A stretch of 64,000 nucleotides of DNA from a bacterium (lineage in GTDB: Bacteria > Bacteroidota > Ignavibacteria > Kapaibacteriales > UBA7675), in assembly GCA_030430495.1 (NCBI GenBank), contig JAUIKM010000019.1, forward strand, positions 1 to 64,000. The letters run 5' to 3'. The notes below the pieces were generated by a model, which saw nothing but the letters and a program-made list of their open reading frames with translations, searched no databases and had not been told where the DNA came from. Made by a program: the position numbers and the translations under genes. Positions 6,631-19,399 of this stretch are shown here, one piece after another (position 1 is the first letter of the stretch; the number at the start of each line of letters is the position of its first letter).

Positions 6631-9600
6631 TTAATCGCGCTTAACGAGAACTCCTTCCGCGACGTTGAAAAGCCCGCTGGAGATTTTCACAAAGTACATC
6701 CCGTTAACTACGGCATGCCCATCACGGCTCTTTCCATCCCATGTAATTGTGTGCGCCCCCGCGTCAAAGAGCGCGTGCTCTGTGAGTGTTTGCACCAGGA
6801 TGCCATTGCTGTTAAAAATCTGGCAGGTAAGGTGTTGTGGGCGTTCGAGTGCAAACTGGATGGCCGCCTGATCAAACGCGGGATTTGGAACTACGTCAAT
6901 GTTAAGTTGAGAGTATTCCAAGGATTCCGCCACCGGCACTGCAATGTCAACCACGATTTCATATTCGCCTGTGTAAGCGCCGCTGGAGTCCATGACCCAA
7001 ACGGTATACGTGCCTGTTTTTTCGCTCTGGAAAAGCACTTCGGCGATGGTTTGGCCGGACTTCCGGTCGATTCTGTTTCCATCGGGATCGAACACAACAA
7101 TGGATGGCTCAAAGTCGGTTTCGGTCCTGTCGGTCATCCGCACCACACAGCCCTGGCCGGCATTGAGGTCGAAGGTATAGCTGTGGAGCGCTCCGGTGGC
7201 GGCAATTGCATCAACAACGCCGCGGCCAATTTCCAATGCGCCTGCATTGCCCGGATTCTTTGAGCGTTGAACGACAATGCCGTACTTGCCCGTGTCATCG
7301 CCGCCCTCGTCCATACACCACAGTGTGTATGTGCCAGATTTCACGGTCTCGAAAATCACTTCGGCGTTGATTTGGTCGGTCTTCCAGTCGATTTCTTGTC
7401 CGTCGGGACCGAACACAAAGATGGACGGCGCAAGGTCGGTCGCCGATCTGTCAGCCATTCTGACAATGCACCACAGGCCCGCCGCCAGATCAAAGGTATA
7501 GGTGCGGATGATCCCGGTGTCCTCGAGCCAGTCGAATTCGTCGAGTCCGAACTCCGCCGTGCGGGCATTCCCCGGTTGCCTGGATCGCTGTACAATAATG
7601 GCGAAGTTGCCGGTATCAACGCCGCCATTGTCCATCGCGCGCACGGTGTATGTGCCGGATTTGGGGGCGAGAAACACCACTTCGGCGCAGATATTGTCCC
7701 AGTCACTGCCGATACTCAGCCCATCGGAATCCAGGACTTCAATGCGCGGTGTGAAATCGCTGTTGGATCTGTCGGCCATCCTGATGATATATTTCCATCC
7801 GGCGGTGACGTCAAATGTATAGGTGTGACGCATTTCGGCGCCTGAAATCACGTCGAGCTGCATGTGCCCGAATTCGAGAACACCCGGGTTGCCGGTCTGG
7901 TTCGACACTTCAACAATGAAATCGTACTGACCTGTGTAGTAGCCCTTGTCATCCATGACCCACACAGTGTAGCTGCCGGATTTAATAGTGTTGAAGACCA
8001 GTTCGACCTCGCTGATGTTCCAACGACTGTCTATACGTTGCCCGTCCGGATCGAAGACATAGATCCGCGGTGTTAAATCTGTGTTGGACCTGTCGGTCAT
8101 TCTGACGGTACACTCCTTGCCGGCGTCGATGTCGAATGTGTATATGTCGAGCCCGCCAACTGCAGCAATCGTATTCACATAGTTGCGCCCGAATATCACA
8201 GTGCGCGCATTGCCGGGCAGCCTGGAGCGCTGGACGACAATACTATAGTTGCCTGTGTAACCACTGCTGTAGTCCGTGGCGCGCACGGTGTATGTGCCGG
8301 ATTTGGGGGCGGGAAACACCACTTCAGCGCAGATGTTGTCCCAGTGACTGCCGATACTCAGCCCATCGGAATCCAGGACTTCAATGCGCGGTGTGAAATC
8401 GCTGTTGGATCTGTCGGCCATCCTGATGATGTATTCCCATCCGGCGGTGACGTCAAATGTATAGGTGTGAAGCATCCCGGCGCTTGAGATCGCATCAAGG
8501 TGCATGCGGCCGAATTCGAGCACAAGCGGGTTTTCGGTCTGTATTGGTCCGTTAACACTGAAATCGTAATGCCCGGTGTAGTAGCCGGTGTAATCCATAA
8601 CCCACACGGTGTACGAACCTGATTTTGCGGTGGTGAAGACCAGCTCAATGTCGGTGTAGTTCCAGCGGCTGCCTATGAGTTGCCCGTCCGGATCAAAAAC
8701 GTAAAAAAGCGGACTGAAATCGGTATTCGATCTGTCGGACATTCTGACGGTAACCTCATGACCTGCGTCGACGCCGAATGTGTAGGTGTGAAGTTTTCCT
8801 GCCGCAGCAATTGTGTCCACCACTGTGCCTTCGGAAGTCAAAGCGCGAGCATTCCCCGGCCGCCTGGAGCGCTGGACGACAAAGCAGTAGTTTCCTGTGT
8901 AGTAGCCGTAGTAGTCCATCACCCAGACGGTGTGAGTTCCCGACTTTTCGGCTGTGAACACATCCTCGGCGGTCAGGTCATCCCAGTCGCTGCCGACCTG
9001 GCGACCGTCGGGACCGAAGACGTAGATCCGCGGCCGGAAATCCGTGCCGGCCACGTCGGCCATTCTGACAATGCACTCCAGGCCGGCCTCGACATCAAAT
9101 GTGTAGCTGTGAAAATTCCCCACGGTGGAAATCGAATCGAGATGAAAACGGCCATATTCGGCGGAACGCGCGTTGCCAGGCTGTTGGGAGCGTTGTACGA
9201 TCAGCCCGTACTCACCGGTGTAGTAGCCGTAGTAGTCCATCACCCAGACGGTGTGAGTTCCCGACTTTTCGGCTGTGAACACATCCTCGGCGGTGAGGTC
9301 ATCCCAGTCGCCGCCGACCTGGCGACCATCCGGACCGAAGACGTAGATCCGCGGTCGGAAATCCGTGCCCGCCAGGTCCGCCATTCTGACAATGCATCTC
9401 ATTCCCGCCTCGGTATCAAACGTGTAGCTGTGAAAATCCCCCACGGTTGTAATCGAATCGAGGTGAAATCGACCAAACTCGGCCGCGCGCGCATTGCCAG
9501 GTTGTTTGGACCGCTGAACGATCAGGCCGTACGCTCCTGTGTTTTGGTCGTTCTGGTCCGTGGCGCGAATGCTGTACTTCCCATCTTTTTCAGCGGCAAA

Positions 9601-9885
9601 CGAGACTTCGGCAGTAGTCTCATCCCAATCGCCTTTGACCGGCGATCCATCAGGATCATGCACCTGAATCTCTGGTCTTAAGGCCGTTGTAAACAGATCC
9701 GACATACGAACGATGTAATTTACTCCCGCTGAGGCGCTAAACTCATATCTATCTATTTCACCCGGTGTCGAAATAGTATGAGTTGAGAATTGACCGAAGT
9801 CCACAGGCGTCTGCGCACTGAGTCCCCCACAGAAAAATAATGACACAATAACCATCAGGCTGAACGTGTTCAGTTTTGTTCTCAT
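6631..9885 (-). CDS. Secreted protein of nine PPC-like beta modules with T9SS sorting domain
   Basis: 1,084 residues. A signal peptide (MRTKLNTFSL start, cleaved near GLSAQ) is followed by nine tandem modules of about 105 residues. Each has the same plan: an FGRFHLD-type strand, a YTFD strand, VRM(A/S)DR, a (V/L)xDPDG turn and YTVWVMD, joined by QRSRQPGNAR linkers. The pattern resembles bacterial pre-peptidase C-terminal (PPC) beta-sandwiches, which bind substrates or cations. The C-terminal 85 residues are a FlgD-like T9SS sorting domain (VPNPAFDQA, TWDGKSRDG, NGMYFVKI). No catalytic domain is visible, so an adhesive or scaffold role is likely. Modules 2/3 and 5/7 are almost identical in DNA, a sign of recent duplication or gene conversion. 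TACGTA boxes lie about 130 bases upstream. Confidence 0.85.
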   Translation of the reverse strand: MRTKLNTFSLMVIVSLFFCGGLSAQTPVDFGQFSTHTISTPGEIDRYEFSASAGVNYIVRMSDLFTTALRPEIQVHDPDGSPVKGDWDETTAEVSFAAEKDGKYSIRATDQNDQNTGAYGLIVQRSKQPGNARAAEFGRFHLDSITTVGDFHSYTFDTEAGMRCIVRMADLAGTDFRPRIYVFGPDGRQVGGDWDDLTAEDVFTAEKSGTHTVWVMDYYGYYTGEYGLIVQRSQQPGNARSAEYGRFHLDSISTVGNFHSYTFDVEAGLECIVRMADVAGTDFRPRIYVFGPDGRQVGSDWDDLTAEDVFTAEKSGTHTVWVMDYYGYYTGNYCFVVQRSRRPGNARALTSEGTVVDTIAAAGKLHTYTFGVDAGHEVTVRMSDRSNTDFSPLFYVFDPDGQLIGSRWNYTDIELVFTTAKSGSYTVWVMDYTGYYTGHYDFSVNGPIQTENPLVLEFGRMHLDAISSAGMLHTYTFDVTAGWEYIIRMADRSNSDFTPRIEVLDSDGLSIGSHWDNICAEVVFPAPKSGTYTVRATDYSSGYTGNYSIVVQRSRLPGNARTVIFGRNYVNTIAAVGGLDIYTFDIDAGKECTVRMTDRSNTDLTPRIYVFDPDGQRIDSRWNISEVELVFNTIKSGSYTVWVMDDKGYYTGQYDFIVEVSNQTGNPGVLEFGHMQLDVISGAEMRHTYTFDVTAGWKYIIRMADRSNSDFTPRIEVLDSDGLSIGSDWDNICAEVVFLAPKSGTYTVRAMDNGGVDTGNFAIIVQRSRQPGNARTAEFGLDEFDWLEDTGIIRTYTFDLAAGLWCIVRMADRSATDLAPSIFVFGPDGQEIDWKTDQINAEVIFETVKSGTYTLWCMDEGGDDTGKYGIVVQRSKNPGNAGALEIGRGVVDAIAATGALHSYTFDLNAGQGCVVRMTDRTETDFEPSIVVFDPDGNRIDRKSGQTIAEVLFQSEKTGTYTVWVMDSSGAYTGEYEIVVDIAVPVAESLEYSQLNIDVVPNPAFDQAAIQFALERPQHLTCQIFNSNGILVQTLTEHALFDAGAHTITWDGKSRDGHAVVNGMYFVKISSGLFNVAEGVLVKRD

Positions 9886-13303: not shown

Positions 13304-13828
13304 ATGAGTGTACCTTCAATACCTACCAGTTATTCGCACGACCTGAACCCGAACGGGCCGCTGGACATCGAACTCGACGTAGACGGGAACCTGAACAGCA
13401 ATATCAACGCCTCGCACAGCGGAACGCTTAACACGAACCTGAGCGGCGGCGTCGATACAAACCTGAGCGGCGCCCTTTCGACCGACAGCGTGCTGACGTT
13501 AAAAGGCGACCCCAAGGCGCCGGTGAGCACGGACAGCAAAGTTGAAATCATGAACCTGCCGCGTTTTACGCTGCAGGACATCAAAGACATGATGAAGGTG
13601 CGCGTGCGGATTCCGAACTATTCGAACATCTGCTTCAAGGTGATGGGCGTGGAGTTGATGAGCCTGTGCATGGGCGGTGAGAGCCAGATCATCACCGAGC
13701 CCTATGTGCCGAACGCCGCGGAGCGCTGCGAAACCGACTGCTGCGAACCGGATACACGTCCGTTTCCCGAACGGCAGGACGGCGCCGCCAAACCCGCACC
13801 CAACCGCAAGACCACTACCAAAAGTTAA
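13304..13828 (+). CDS. Repeat-rich small protein, first gene of the prenyl operon
   Basis: 174 residues, no signal peptide and no family recognised. Residues about 18-75 alternate hydrophobic and small polar residues in short repeats (LNSNINASHSG, LNTNLSGGVDTNLSG, then ALSTDSVLTL), as expected for a beta-helix or beta-solenoid face. The middle has IPNYSNICFKVMGVEL. The end is Cys-rich (RCETDCCEP), followed by a basic Pro-rich tail. It begins a tight co-directional set running to 19321, and the next start is 30 bases after its stop. A surface or coat component of whatever the operon builds is only a guess from context. The start codon is not supported by a Shine-Dalgarno sequence. Confidence 0.6.
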   Translation: MSVPSIPTSYSHDLNPNGPLDIELDVDGNLNSNINASHSGTLNTNLSGGVDTNLSGALSTDSVLTLKGDPKAPVSTDSKVEIMNLPRFTLQDIKDMMKVRVRIPNYSNICFKVMGVELMSLCMGGESQIITEPYVPNAAERCETDCCEPDTRPFPERQDGAAKPAPNRKTTTKS

Positions 13829-13857
13829 CGATCATTTAACACGCCGCAGCTATTACC

Positions 13858-14649
13858 ATGATTACAATCAAAGCCGATGAGCAGCAGGAGAAACTGTCGA
13901 TTCTCGAAAAAGAGATCGTGTTAACAGGTCCGCCCAACAACCTGCAGGGCAGCATTCACTTTGCCAACCGGCAGAGCGAAATGCTGCGCGTCAAGTTCCT
14001 GGCGCTGAGCGGCACGGACGACAAAGAGCCCGGCGGTGCGTCGATGCGCTCGTCCTTTCGGCTGCAACCGGGCGAAGAGGCGCTCAAGCCTGTTAAACAC
14101 CAGATGCCGGCCACGACGCCGCCGGGCACCTACGAAAAACACATCCGCACGGGCAAAAGCAGGCACGTCGTCAAGCTGATCGTGCAGCCGACTATTAATA
14201 TTGCCGTGCACCCGCAGCACTTCACCTTTCAGGGCAGCGAGCCCGGCACGCGGCATACCGCGACGATCGCGCTCAGAAACCTCGGCAACATGCCCTTCCG
14301 CATACCGGAACCCAAACACGCTTCGATGCTCGACATGGACCTGCTCTGCCGCGCCTTCGGCATGGGGTTCCGGGAAGCGCCGGACAGCGGTGTGAACGAA
14401 ACGCTCGACAAGGTGGCGCAGAACATCAAAGCCAATATGGTCGACTGGGCGGCGATGAAAATCAGGGAAGCCGGACAGATTGTTGAACCCGGCGGCAGCG
14501 CCATTCTGCACGTCGATACGCTGATACCAAAGAACGCCGATCCCGGACGCGACTACGGCGGTAACTTCCGCTTCTGGGACAAGGATATTTCGATTGCCGT
14601 AAAATCACACCTTCAATCCAGCAAGGAGAAAAACCGTGGAAGAAAATAA
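13858..14649 (+). CDS. Protein with two Ig-like beta-sandwich regions, prenyl operon
   Basis: 263 residues, cytoplasmic by sequence (no signal peptide or membrane span). Residues 20-105 and 110-250 look like Ig-like domains: LQGSIHFANRQSE, LQPGEEA, PPGTYEKHI, then HTATIALRNLGNMPF and DPGRDYGGNFRFWD. The GTY and PG turns resemble NEW3/MSP-type beta-sandwiches that act as binding or assembly domains. A helical insertion lies at about 160-200. The gene overlaps the next one by 14 bases, so co-translation is likely. No enzyme motif. I recognise the fold type but not the family. Confidence 0.6.
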   Translation: MITIKADEQQEKLSILEKEIVLTGPPNNLQGSIHFANRQSEMLRVKFLALSGTDDKEPGGASMRSSFRLQPGEEALKPVKHQMPATTPPGTYEKHIRTGKSRHVVKLIVQPTINIAVHPQHFTFQGSEPGTRHTATIALRNLGNMPFRIPEPKHASMLDMDLLCRAFGMGFREAPDSGVNETLDKVAQNIKANMVDWAAMKIREAGQIVEPGGSAILHVDTLIPKNADPGRDYGGNFRFWDKDISIAVKSHLQSSKEKNRGRK

Positions 14650-15301
14650 TACCCGCGCCGCCGACTGGCCGCAGACGATTGCGGACACACTGCAACAGTT
14701 AAGCAGCATTTCGCTCGACTCGGTCAGGCCGCTGATTGACTCCGCAGTGGAAAACGCTAACAAGTTAAACAGGTCAATTGCAAACGGCACGCTGCCGCAG
14801 TTTTCGCTGCGCGACCTGTACGGCGGATATCAAAACAAGAACTGTTCAACGCCCGAAAACGAGTGCCCGCCGCACTGCATCGCCACGATACGGCGCACCG
14901 CCATGGCCGGCGAGCAGATCATCGTGCCCTTTGTGGTGAAAAACACCTGCTCCGCCGCCAAAACCTGGCGCGTCGGCCTGCGCGAACTGGAAGACATCAA
15001 TGGAGTGGCGGCGCCGTCACAGCCGCGACTTAACAAAGACGCGGTGACGCTGGCTCCGGGCCGCAGCGAGCAGGTGCTGATGGCGCTCGACCTGAGCAAG
15101 TTTCGCAACGGCAGCCGTTACACCTGCGAGATTGTTTTGCGCGAAAAAGAGATAAACCAGAACATCTGTTTTTACCTGAACGTTGGCGATCACGCCGCTA
15201 CAGTTGTCACGCCGCAGGACGAACAAAAATACAAACTCAGGTGGCAGAACTGGCAGTCGCACTTTTACTGCGAGCCGGAAGCCGACGGACGCCGGTCCTG
15301 A
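14636..15301 (+). CDS. Helical plus Ig-like protein with conserved Cys, prenyl operon
   Basis: 221 residues. The first 60 residues are predicted helical (WPQTIADTLQQLSS, LIDSAVENANKLNRS). A Cys cluster (NCSTPENECPPHC, about residues 80-92) precedes an Ig-like sandwich (GEQIIVPFVVKNTC, LAPGRSEQVLMALDLS, YTCEIVLREKEIN). The plan of helical N-terminus plus beta-sandwich C-terminus recurs in the next two genes, suggesting a diverged family within the operon. No signal peptide. The Cys cluster could bind metal. Function unknown; a structural role on a cytoplasmic body is suggested by context only. Confidence 0.6.
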   Translation: MEENNTRAADWPQTIADTLQQLSSISLDSVRPLIDSAVENANKLNRSIANGTLPQFSLRDLYGGYQNKNCSTPENECPPHCIATIRRTAMAGEQIIVPFVVKNTCSAAKTWRVGLRELEDINGVAAPSQPRLNKDAVTLAPGRSEQVLMALDLSKFRNGSRYTCEIVLREKEINQNICFYLNVGDHAATVVTPQDEQKYKLRWQNWQSHFYCEPEADGRRS

Positions 15302-15359
15302 GCGTTCAGCACACAGGTTAAACAGACATCCCGCCAATCAAATCCGGGCAAGCATCGAC

Positions 15360-16043
15360 ATGTTTTTTCTGAAAGGTTTTGAGGACATTGTCAAGAATTC
15401 GATCGAACTGCATCGGCGCTATTTTGAACGCGGCTCCGAGTTGCTCGGCCAACTGAGCCGGACGCGCAACAGCGAGGAGAACGAGAGCGATCCGGGCAGC
15501 TACGTCGGGCCGATGACGGAGCTGGCCCGACTTAACATCGAACACTATCAGAATGTCATGAAGCTGAGTCTCGAAGCCACCAGGAATGCATTCGGCGTGG
15601 CTTCGGACACATCCGACGACAGTTCGGCGGCGGACGCCGGCAAAGCGGAACCGGACGGGCCGCAGACCGACTTCCCGGACGGCTACGTCGACGAACCCGC
15701 GTTTGTTTTATCCGGCACGGGACACAACGGCGGCAAAGTCATTTTGCAGTTTGTGCTGGACAACATCAAAGAGGAAGAGGTGCTTTGCCGGCTGGTCAAC
15801 CACGCATTTGTCAACGACGAGAATCCGGCGGAGCGTTATCACCTTGCAAGCATTTTTGAGCCGCAGTCTTTTACCCTGCTGTCGAAGGAAGCGCAGAAAG
15901 TCGCGATCGTCATTGAGATCCCCGCCGACGTGAAACCCGGCGTATACAACAGCAAAGTTCAGGTCATCGGCTTTGAACCGGTGTACTTTCTGATTCAACT
16001 GCAAGTCGTCAGCAAACCTCAACAAACATCTCCCGAACAATGA
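15360..16043 (+). CDS. Phasin-like helix plus Ig-like domain protein, prenyl operon
   Basis: 227 residues from the ATG at 15360. An upstream frame reaches 15183, but it overlaps the previous gene and its extra residues look like out-of-frame sequence. Residues 1-80 form amphipathic helices (VKNSIELHRRYFERGSEL; LARLNIEHYQNVMKLSLEAT) resembling phasins, the proteins that coat polyester granules. Residues about 115-220 are an Ig-like sandwich (GGKVILQFVLDN, VKPGVYNSKVQVIG). It overlaps the next gene by four bases (ATGA). The phasin resemblance is by eye and needs profile support. Inferred role: coat protein of a storage or lipid body. Confidence 0.6.
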   Translation: MFFLKGFEDIVKNSIELHRRYFERGSELLGQLSRTRNSEENESDPGSYVGPMTELARLNIEHYQNVMKLSLEATRNAFGVASDTSDDSSAADAGKAEPDGPQTDFPDGYVDEPAFVLSGTGHNGGKVILQFVLDNIKEEEVLCRLVNHAFVNDENPAERYHLASIFEPQSFTLLSKEAQKVAIVIEIPADVKPGVYNSKVQVIGFEPVYFLIQLQVVSKPQQTSPEQ

Positions 16044-16807
16044 GTCAAAAGAAGACAAAGTACACGGCTGAAGACTTCCTGAACGGCATGAAACCCGACG
16101 CCATGTTTTCGGACGCACAAAACCTGATTTCTTCGGCCGTCAATGTGCTGGAAGAGGAAATTGCCGCCGGAATCCTGGCGGCAAAAAACATCGAGAAAGA
16201 CGTCATCGACGTCGACGATATTCGCAGCGACCCCAACGATCTGTTTAACCGCATCAGAAGAGACACACACGAAGCGGTTGATCTGTTTTTGGACGCGTTT
16301 ACGGCCATATCAAAACAGATGAACGACCTGGCGGCTCTAAACAAAACAGCGGAGGCCGGAGCCAACGGCAAAGACACAAGCCACAACGGCGCTGCGCCGC
16401 GACGGGACGCGGAACAAACCAGGACCGCTGAATCGACCAGGCGCTCAAAGACCACACAGAACGAGACCGGGGACGGCGGCGTCATCCTGTTAAAAAGCGG
16501 CCGCCCGCTCGAACCCGGCGAATCCGTCGACCTGCAGTTCAGCCTGCTCGAAGACGGCGAAACCGCCGGGAAGATCGCCTTCCGCAAAACCAACCTCATC
16601 GGCGTTGACGACCTCGTTATTCACTCCCGCGCGATTAAAATCACTCCGCAAAAACTCACGCTTCAGCCGAATGTGGAAGAACATGTCAGCGTGCGCGTCA
16701 ACATTCCCAAAAATGCGGCGGCGGGACACTACAACGCATTTATCACCGCGACATCGGAACAGAACATCAGGATTGTGTTGGACATTGAAGTCGTTAAAAC
16801 AGCATGA
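16040..16807 (+). CDS. Second phasin-like helix plus Ig-like domain protein, prenyl operon
   Basis: 255 residues with the same plan as the preceding protein. The helical N-terminus covers about residues 1-115 (DAQNLISSAVNVLEEEIA; RRDTHEAVDLFLDAFTAI) and is followed by a low-complexity linker (about 115-150). The C-terminal Ig-like sandwich has LEPGESVDLQFSL, KLTLQPNVEEHVSVRVNI and AAGHYNAFITAT. No signal peptide. Its stop overlaps the start of the prenyl synthase gene by four bases, which ties the structural proteins to the two isoprenoid enzymes translationally. No named family. Function inferred only from architecture and operon. Confidence 0.6.
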   Translation: MSQKKTKYTAEDFLNGMKPDAMFSDAQNLISSAVNVLEEEIAAGILAAKNIEKDVIDVDDIRSDPNDLFNRIRRDTHEAVDLFLDAFTAISKQMNDLAALNKTAEAGANGKDTSHNGAAPRRDAEQTRTAESTRRSKTTQNETGDGGVILLKSGRPLEPGESVDLQFSLLEDGETAGKIAFRKTNLIGVDDLVIHSRAIKITPQKLTLQPNVEEHVSVRVNIPKNAAAGHYNAFITATSEQNIRIVLDIEVVKTA

Positions 16808-17832
16808 ATGAAGATTTGATGAAGACAATGTTGGCGGCCTACGGCGCGGCGACATTAAACGGTATCAAAGACTTTATTCCCGACAAGGAGCCGCGCACAT
16901 ACCTCTACGATCTGGTAGCCGAATACCCGGAGCGCGGCGGCAAGGGATTCAGGCCCGGCCTGTGCATTGCGGCCTGCAAAGCTTTCGGCGGCGTGCAAAG
17001 CGACGCGATGAATTCCGCGGTCTGCCTCGAGCTGCTCCACAACGCCTTTCTGGTTCACGACGATGTGGAAGATGAAAGTTTAATCCGGCGCAACCGCCCC
17101 ACGCTGCACGAAGCCAACAACCGCGCCATCGCCATTAACGTCGGCGACGCAATGCAGGTCCTGGCGATGTACCCGCTTCACATGAACCGCGACCGCCTGG
17201 GCGACAGGGTCGCAAGCGCCATCTACCTGGAAGTCCGCCACCTGGCAATCGAATCGGCGGAAGGTCAGGCGATAGAACTGGGCTGGCGGCGGGACAATGT
17301 CTGCGATCTGCGCGAGACCGACTACCTGCACATGATTCTGAAAAAGACCTGCTGGTACACCTGCATCCACCCGCTCAGAATCGGCGCGATTATCGGCACG
17401 CGCGGCCGGGTCAATCCGGAAATCTTTGATCGCTTCGGCTATTTCATGGGCACGGCGTTCCAGATTCAGGACGACGTGCTCAACCTGATAGCCGAACAGG
17501 ACGCCTACGGCAAGGAAATCTGCGGCGACATCATCGAGGGCAAACGCACCCTGATGTTAATCCATCTGCTGCAACACGGCAGCGCCGAAGAACACAGCTT
17601 TGTGAAAAACTTCCTGTCGCTGCCGATTAACAAACGCAGCCTCGACGACGCCCGCGCAATCCTGGCGCTGATGAACACATACGGCTCGATTGCACACGCC
17701 AAAAAAACGGCTCAATATCTGGCCGGAGGCGCGTTAAAGGAGTTCTACAGCATTTTCGCGCGACTCCCGGCCGGCGACGACAAGACGCTGATTGAAAACA
17801 TCGTTTTGTACATGATTAACCGCACGTACTGA
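16804..17832 (+). CDS. Polyprenyl diphosphate synthase (trans-isoprenyl)
   Basis: 342 residues, normal length for the trans-isoprenyl diphosphate synthases that condense isopentenyl diphosphate onto allylic diphosphates. The first Asp-rich motif is DDVED (residues 86-90) followed by Arg-Arg-Asn-Arg. The second is FQIQDDVLN (Asp223, Asp224, with Asn at the fifth position, as often seen in GGPP synthases). GKGFRPGLC near residue 47 matches the GxKxxRP diphosphate-binding loop. Product chain length cannot be fixed from the sequence. It sits between phasin/Ig-like genes and a geranylgeranyl-reductase-like gene, so its product is probably used locally rather than for general quinone synthesis. Confidence 0.88.
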   Translation: MNEDLMKTMLAAYGAATLNGIKDFIPDKEPRTYLYDLVAEYPERGGKGFRPGLCIAACKAFGGVQSDAMNSAVCLELLHNAFLVHDDVEDESLIRRNRPTLHEANNRAIAINVGDAMQVLAMYPLHMNRDRLGDRVASAIYLEVRHLAIESAEGQAIELGWRRDNVCDLRETDYLHMILKKTCWYTCIHPLRIGAIIGTRGRVNPEIFDRFGYFMGTAFQIQDDVLNLIAEQDAYGKEICGDIIEGKRTLMLIHLLQHGSAEEHSFVKNFLSLPINKRSLDDARAILALMNTYGSIAHAKKTAQYLAGGALKEFYSIFARLPAGDDKTLIENIVLYMINRTY

Positions 17833-17836
17833 CCGC

Positions 17837-19321
17837 ATGATTCGCATTAAACCACTCCCGCACTACGACTGTGACGTGTTGATTGCCGGCGGCGGCCCTG
17901 CCGGCAGCGGTCTCGCGTTTCACCTTGCATCCGCCGGCGTTAAAGTCATCGCCGTGGAATCCGGTATTTTCCCGCGTGACAAAGTCTGCGGCGACGGCGT
18001 CAGTCCGATCGCGCTGGCGGAACTCGCCAACATGGGCATCGCCGAAGCCGCGCAGTTTAAACAGGCCAACGAAATCACACGCGTCGGACTTTTCCTTGAG
18101 AACGACAAAGTGTCAATTAAACTCTCCAAGCCCGAGCACCTGCCCTACCACGCCCGCATCATTCCGCGCCGGGAACTCGACAACTGGATCTACGAAGCGG
18201 CCGCCGGGGCCGGAGCCGAATTCCTGCTGGGCACGCGCGTTACGGATTACGCGATTAACAGTGAGGGCGCATTGGTTTACCTCAGGTCAAAAAATCGGGA
18301 ATTCACACTCAGAGCCAGAATGGTTGTCGGCGCGGACGGCGGCCGGTCCACACTGGCCAGGCGCATGCACGGCGCTAAACCGCAGGAAAGCGATCAACTC
18401 CTGGGCCTGCGCGCCTACTACAAAAATGTTAACGGCCCCACCGATCAGGTCGACATCTACTTTAACGACAGTGGTTTTCCCGGCATCATGTGGCTTTTCC
18501 CCAAGGGACCGCACGACGCCAATATCGGCATTGCAATGGTCGCCAAAACATTCCCCAAAAAACCCGAGCACATCAAAGAGGTTTTGCTGGCGCACATCAA
18601 CAACAACCCCGACATAAAACGCCGCATCGGCGATGGCATCGCCGACGATAAAATCCGCGGCTGGCCCATCACGATTTACAATCCCGACAATCGCGTCAGC
18701 GACGAACGCATTGCACTTGTAGGTGAAGCGGCGGGGCTGATTAATCCACTCAGCGGCGACGGCATCCAATACGCCTTGTTAAGCGCCCGCTGGGCGGCGA
18801 CGACAATTGTCGATTGCGTGCAACGCAACAGCTTCACGCGGCAGGACCTGGACGCCTATGCCCACAAAGTTAAACGGGAAGTGTCCTACGACTTCGCCTT
18901 GTCCAACCTGCTGGTTCACGTGCCGCGCAACAAGACATTCAACAGAGTCTGGCTGCGGGTTTTAACAAGTATGATTTCACAGGCGCGGGACGACGGTGCG
19001 TACGCCGACACAATTGCCGGCGTTTTTGAAGGCACCTACCCGTCCTACAAAGCCGTTAATCTCTCGTTCATTCTCAAGTCGCTCACACAGTTCGGGCTGG
19101 GGGCCGGCAGGGACCTGGCTTCCACTATGCAGAATCCACAGCAGGCGCTGCTTTCCGGCACGGAGCTGGCGAAGGACGTGTTCACTATTCTCGAAGAGTT
19201 AAAAGACAATCCGCGCGACAATATCAGCTGGCTGAGCGGCGGCCTGACACAATCGGCTTCGGTGCTGGCGCATCTGGTTAAAACGCTCGACGCACGCAGC
19301 CTGAAAAACATTCTTTCCTGA
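17837..19321 (+). CDS. Geranylgeranyl reductase family FAD-dependent enzyme
   Basis: 494 residues. The N-terminus has the Rossmann FAD motif GGGPAGSG (about residue 17) followed by ESG and FPRDKVCGDG, typical of the geranylgeranyl reductase (GGR) family. MWLFPKGPHDANIGIAM matches the family's W-x-FPK ... NIG segment. GEAAGLINPLSGDGI is the second FAD motif. The family reduces isoprenoid double bonds in chlorophyll phytyl, archaeal lipid or menaquinone side chains. Lying 4 bases after the prenyl synthase, it probably saturates that enzyme's product. The C-terminal 110 residues, beyond the usual core, are helical and may bind membrane. Substrate unknown. Confidence 0.85.
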   Translation: MIRIKPLPHYDCDVLIAGGGPAGSGLAFHLASAGVKVIAVESGIFPRDKVCGDGVSPIALAELANMGIAEAAQFKQANEITRVGLFLENDKVSIKLSKPEHLPYHARIIPRRELDNWIYEAAAGAGAEFLLGTRVTDYAINSEGALVYLRSKNREFTLRARMVVGADGGRSTLARRMHGAKPQESDQLLGLRAYYKNVNGPTDQVDIYFNDSGFPGIMWLFPKGPHDANIGIAMVAKTFPKKPEHIKEVLLAHINNNPDIKRRIGDGIADDKIRGWPITIYNPDNRVSDERIALVGEAAGLINPLSGDGIQYALLSARWAATTIVDCVQRNSFTRQDLDAYAHKVKREVSYDFALSNLLVHVPRNKTFNRVWLRVLTSMISQARDDGAYADTIAGVFEGTYPSYKAVNLSFILKSLTQFGLGAGRDLASTMQNPQQALLSGTELAKDVFTILEELKDNPRDNISWLSGGLTQSASVLAHLVKTLDARSLKNILS

Positions 19322-19331
19322 CTTAACACTA

Positions 19332-19399
19332 TCCGACCGCTTTGAGCTGCGTCGTTTCACTCGCATCTCAGGCTCGCTTGATTTCTTGTTTGTCACCGG
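19332..19399. repeat. Dispersed intergenic repeat, copy C (single arm)
   Basis: CCGACCGCTTTGAGCTGC ... CTTGTTTGTCACC, nearly identical to the left arms at 10603 and 12288. It starts 11 bases after the reductase stop and even supplies the stop codon (19393-19395) of the convergent minus-strand gene. Confidence 0.6.

Follow-up and report, generated by a model that had tools for sequence, protein, structure and literature searches.

What would five small proteins of no recognised family do beside two isoprenoid enzymes? The question is raised by seven open reading frames on the plus strand at positions 13304–19321 of the window, the 64,000-nucleotide stretch of bacterial DNA analysed here, which encode five soluble proteins (P1–P5), a prenyl synthase (P6), and a protein of the geranylgeranyl reductase family (P7). 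The spacings from P1 to P7 are 29, −14, 58, −4, −4, and +4 bases, so the short gaps or overlaps of 4–14 bases described in an earlier, sequence-only reading of this locus hold at most junctions, but two gaps are larger (29 and 58 bases). P4–P5 and P5–P6 each overlap by 4 bases, the start of P4 at 15360 is supported by the starts of its homologues, and an open reading frame on the opposite strand, at 19393, comes after P7. Promoter and terminator scans gave no clear excess over shuffled sequence. No 19-residue Kyte–Doolittle window in P1–P7 exceeds 1.4 and none of the proteins has a strongly hydrophobic N-terminus, which is consistent with the cytoplasmic location previously suggested for the small proteins. 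Elsewhere in the window (6631–9885, minus strand) lies a gene for a secreted-looking protein of 1084 residues that contains repeated units and has a sorting-like tail at its C-terminus.

The seven-gene operon is a genuine gene set, conserved far beyond chance. A survey of one genome per species across 84,980 species, for which P6 aligned with two homologues served as the query, returned 231 relatives, and the best 80 of these 231 were kept, corresponding to 79 loci. The full set occurs in the same order and on the same strand in 12 of the 79 loci (11 by a strict scripted rule, plus L070 by its gene map, where the rule mislabels P5), and three further loci (L016, L019, and L027) are cut by contig ends. 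The synthases of all fifteen loci fall into one clade with the P6 of the window (support 97 in a quick tree), and the hosts belong to Bacteroidota families apart from one Balneolota MAG; carriers with names are Aequorivita, Marixanthomonas, Chryseolinea serpens, and Terrimonas. Relatives of P1–P3 are also present, in other arrangements, in L067 (Tectomicrobia) and L086 (Burkholderiaceae). No family of flanking genes is common to most of the full-operon loci. Purifying selection acts on all seven genes, as dN/dS for P1–P7 is 0.17, 0.18, 0.18, 0.28, 0.13, 0.07, and 0.13 between L012 and L015, the one of three pairs compared in which dS is unsaturated for every gene. The operon around two isoprenoid enzymes that had been proposed from the letters of one genome is therefore borne out by the same order and strand in other loci.

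The full module is rare, and its distribution is patchy. A P1 profile matches 1 of 395 phylum genomes, P3 is found in 1 of 61 relatives, and P6 finds matches at E ≤ 1e-60 in 3 of 296 genomes. The P5 profile matches 4 of 395 phylum genomes at E ≤ 1e-5, two of them (G007 and G309) in the Ig part only, and when P5 itself was compared with 198 phylum genomes the only match besides the host was in G094, beside a synthase of 53% identity. Horizontal transfer would be a likely cause of this patchiness.

The two enzymes can be placed in families with confidence, as had been proposed. P6 (16804–17832, 342 residues) is a prenyl diphosphate synthase that scores 186.6 bits against PF00348 (cut-off 27), has a GGPP synthase as its best match among solved structures (E 9e-49), and keeps both Asp-rich motifs intact (DDVED and DDVLN). 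A small residue at position −5 before the first Asp-rich motif permits chains longer than C15, and alanine occupies this position before DDxxD in 81 of 81 synthases (those of the window, L009, and the 79 loci); in their commonest forms the second motif is DDxxN. The host genome contains two further PF00348 synthase genes, and P6 is thus an extra, third copy. P7 (17837–19321, 494 residues) is a flavoprotein that passes the cut-off of the geranylgeranyl reductase model TIGR02032 of NCBIfam (202.2 against 158.8 bits) and carries a C-terminal extension of about 100 residues. Among solved structures it best matches a digeranylgeranylglycerophospholipid reductase (E 2e-26), and the motifs FPRDK-CGD and FPG..W.FP and a C-terminal FAD-site motif are kept throughout an 18-sequence alignment. 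The equivalog models tried, MenJ and DGGGPL reductase, did not reach their cut-offs. P7 is a likely isoprenoid reductase, predicted from its family.

Neither Pfam nor NCBIfam models reach a cut-off in P1–P5. P1 (13304–13828, 174 residues) has a repetitive N-terminus (GGL/SGxL-like), a Cys-rich tail, and a conserved block, PRFTLQDIKDMMKVRVRIPNYSN..ITEPYVP; it is 57–65% identical to its homologues in 13 operons and 30% identical to that in L067, and its AlphaFold2 model (pLDDT 46) was too poor to use for a fold assignment. The other four have an Ig-like domain in common, as profile comparison (hhalign) with P5 gives a probability of 93% (E 3e-7) for a segment at about residues 32–100 of P2 (13858–14649, 263 residues, soluble), 94.8% (E 5e-8) for P3 (14636–15301, 221 residues, GTG start), and 98.5% (E 2e-15) for P4 (15360–16043, 227 residues). 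Three proteins had been described as a helical N-terminus followed by an Ig-like C-terminus, and that architecture stands, with the helical part judged probable from sequence for P3 and P4 and predicted by a structural model for P5; the Ig-like domain is not limited to these three proteins but is found in at least four, P2 included. Shared origin of the helical parts of P4 and P5 is not claimed, given a hhalign probability of 0.5% between them (30% between P4 and P3). A search of viral contigs for P4 relatives found none.

For P5 (16040–16807, 255 residues), a conserved companion of the synthase, AlphaFold2 run on 37 aligned sequences predicts a helical hairpin (residues 19–55 and 65–106) joined by a disordered linker to a beta-sandwich at residues 148–251, which is modelled with confidence (pLDDT of 91–98 over residues 151–255). 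Structural matches to the sandwich include GH123 N-terminal domains (Z 13.0), the PapD-like domain of CEP192 (12.2), the MSP domain of VAP-A (10.4), and MSP (9.0), so that the C-terminal domain is predicted to be an Ig fold of the PapD/ASH/MSP-like kind. As such folds are widespread, the match concerns fold and not function. Conserved residues in the hairpin follow the pattern LEEEIAAGIxAAKxxE ... RxRRDAHE.

Homologues of these proteins remain linked to prenyl synthases in other genomes, the opposite of what the sequence-only reading had said would refute it. Of the 79 loci, 60 have an Ig-domain gene no more than 300 bases from the synthase; at that distance the P5 helix is encoded in 39 loci and a P7 relative in 28. 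Among 7316 open reading frames, only two Ig hits are more than 3.5 kb from a synthase. What most steadily accompanies the synthase is an Ig-domain protein, which in the Bacteroidota versions is P5. In myxobacterial and actinobacterial loci several Ig matches are weak (down to E 9e-4), and among the locus titles two Bathyarchaeota MAGs and a Clostridia MAG may be binning errors. Some of the 19 loci outside the Ig rule have an Ig gene farther off (304 bases in L021, within 2.5 kb in L067 and L086, and 7.3 kb in L060); L036 has the helix without the Ig domain, and the Ig match of L084 lies within the synthase reading frame itself. Neither an Ig partner nor the P5 helix was found near the synthase in 13 of the 79 loci, five of them on contigs shorter than 5.5 kb, and the P5–P6 pairing is therefore not universal in the wider clade.

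Other genes adjoin these synthases. In loci without P1–P4, the P5–P6 pair is accompanied by a protein of about 1200 residues whose conserved N-terminus runs from near GFEVVAE (L023:12616-16881, L024–L026, L030, L033–L035, L037–L039, L044, L047, L049, and L056); the one scanned, from L023, contains PKD domains, and a companion of about 200 residues is often present. A TULIP-like lipid-binding N-terminus, suspected in the large protein, was not borne out by profile searches against Pfam and solved structures. In a Chlorobiaceae MAG the helical part of P5 is fused to a VCIKLCEPICA-type domain in place of the Ig domain (L005:8224-8694), and the same type of domain occurs as a separate protein at L025:8488-9246 and L023:8698-9222. 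Near the synthase of genome G164 lies a 1080-residue protein (L009:12077-15319) that combines a ferritin-like domain (PF12902), an amine-oxidase-like flavoprotein, and a Rieske domain; a CrtC-like identity for a 330-residue neighbour in G164 was dropped, as it has no Pfam match at E ≤ 0.01.

A gene of an encapsulin cluster is present in nine loci, some of them alphaproteobacterial, and all five of the proteins scanned pass the cut-off of PF04454. This divergent encapsulin adjoins the clade synthase at L071:6067-9945 and in L046, L060, L072–L075, L077, and L078, all far from the seven-gene operon in the synthase tree. Some of these loci also encode a DUF3237 protein together with an amine-oxidase-like flavoprotein, and L071 has an adenylate-cyclase/AAA/TPR protein upstream. 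A Family 1 cargo-loading peptide motif was not seen at the C-termini of the nine encapsulin-locus synthases examined. An encapsulin in the host genome is not supported, with 0 matches to PF04454, the one shell model used.

We tentatively favour, at somewhat less than an even chance, a dedicated isoprenoid-synthesis module in which P1–P5 hold P6 and P7 in a scaffolded metabolon built on P5 and P6. P6 would make a polyprenyl diphosphate and P7 would saturate part of its double bonds, while P1–P5, as soluble and probably cytoplasmic structural proteins, would gather the two enzymes into a metabolon or a small body that handles the hydrophobic product. The core unit would be P5 bound to P6, with the conserved hairpin of P5 docking on the synthase, and the PapD/MSP-like Ig domains of P2–P5 may self-associate or bind other parts. 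The fold is no proof of scaffolding, since Ig domains of this type have many different functions. Encapsulins beside the same synthase clade are in line with bringing the synthase into a protein assembly, and by analogy they offer the best outside hint of one.

The earlier suggestion was that two of the helical parts resemble phasins. That resemblance did not hold up, as only P4 matches Phasin_2 (PF09361), with a score of 22.6 bits where the cut-off is 24.9 (E 4.2e-4). This sub-threshold hit is the sole Phasin_2 match in the 5.6 Mb host genome, and at E ≤ 0.1 the domain is matched, below its cut-off, by 4 of 15 members of the P4 family, the window protein included, and by 0 of 15 of the P3 family in the matches listed, and by 0 of 37 of the P5 family among the 25 commonest of 43 families listed; at E ≤ 0.01 it is not found in the genomes of the full-operon loci L010, L012, L020, and L021. 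When profiles of the helical parts were aligned by hhalign to 18 Phasin_2 sequences from the genomes searched, P4 scored 18.7 (probability 5%, E 0.007) and exceeded 100 of 100 column-permuted controls (maximum 14.0), P3 reached a probability of 2.6% with 0 of 100 permuted controls attaining its score, and P5 reached 0.6% with 4 of 100 doing so. From Pfam on family members, the genome search, and the profile controls, kinship with phasins is unsupported for P3 and P5 and weak for P4, which may be a distant phasin relative or a convergent pair of amphipathic helices. The helical parts are indeed more amphipathic than nearly all shuffles (at most 3 of 200 as high), and together with the P4 match and its lead over all permuted profiles this is what speaks for an isoprenoid granule in the cytoplasm with a phasin-like coat, in which the helices of P3–P5 would cover a polyprenyl core and the Ig domains face the cytosol. 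Set against the low profile probabilities, the sparse family matches, and an operon in which Pfam and NCBIfam find no enzyme that polymerises or esterifies a storage lipid, we consider such a coat unlikely.

Some known prenyl synthases are heteromers that contain a small helical subunit, and P5, perhaps with P4, could be a non-catalytic subunit that sets the chain length or activity of P6, leaving the remaining proteins as accessories of an ordinary isoprenoid cluster without a higher assembly. The adjacency of P5 and P6 with their 4-base overlap, and the persistence of P5 with P6 where P1–P4 are missing, agree with this arrangement; however, five conserved, structural-looking families exceed the needs of one subunit, the Pfam matches of P5 at E ≤ 1 include no small subunit of heteromeric synthases, and P6 has all catalytic motifs and a GGPP synthase as its best solved-structure match, which makes a regulatory subunit on its own a rather doubtful answer. 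The Ig proteins might instead act at a membrane or the envelope, as the MSP domains of VAP proteins do, and deliver a saturated isoprenoid lipid. The likeness of the P5 sandwich to the VAP-A domain points that way, as does the best solved-structure match of P7, an enzyme that acts on lipid-bound isoprenoids, but the lack of any signal-peptide-like or transmembrane stretch in P1–P7 leaves a membrane-associated assembly quite improbable.

The scaffolded module can be extended to a bolder proposal, which we consider unlikely: that, as a widespread arrangement, this distinct synthase clade works inside an assembly nucleated by a helical/Ig partner, and that the operon encodes a shell-less bacterial isoprenoid organelle. 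Most lineages would then use Ig and repeat proteins alone, including versions with the PKD protein of about 1200 residues, and others, mainly Ruegeria/Rhodobacter-type alphaproteobacteria, would add the divergent encapsulin. Five families without a function and two isoprenoid enzymes together form a conserved gene set that is open to experiment. If the scaffolded module is real, it would show how bacteria organise the synthesis of a water-insoluble chain in the cytosol, and it would bear on why the same synthase clade adjoins encapsulins in other lineages.

Listings from open PMC searches gave no description of the seven-gene set. With phasins, P4 shares an amphipathic N-terminus, but it has an Ig-like domain attached and most of its relatives lack the match. 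P5 shares the predicted fold of PapD-like/ASH/MSP domains, yet it is bacterial, carries that fold on a helical hairpin, and is tied to a prenyl synthase; the fold is also generic, since its best structural matches include a glycosidase N-terminal domain. P7 belongs with the geranylgeranyl reductase family by score and motifs and departs from it in its C-terminal extension. In the excerpted text of PMC8346489, Family 2B encapsulins carry prenyl transferases as cargo with no Ig partners mentioned, and 90 Family 1 encapsulin systems are unassigned, with details given in a supplement that may already list the encapsulin–synthase link. P6 stays below the cut-off of the Family 2B cargo model NF041169 (159 against 450 bits), its host has no PF04454 match, and its operon partners are Ig and helical proteins; what it would share with those systems, as far as the excerpt describes them, is a match to the cargo model and a prenyl synthase brought into a protein assembly.
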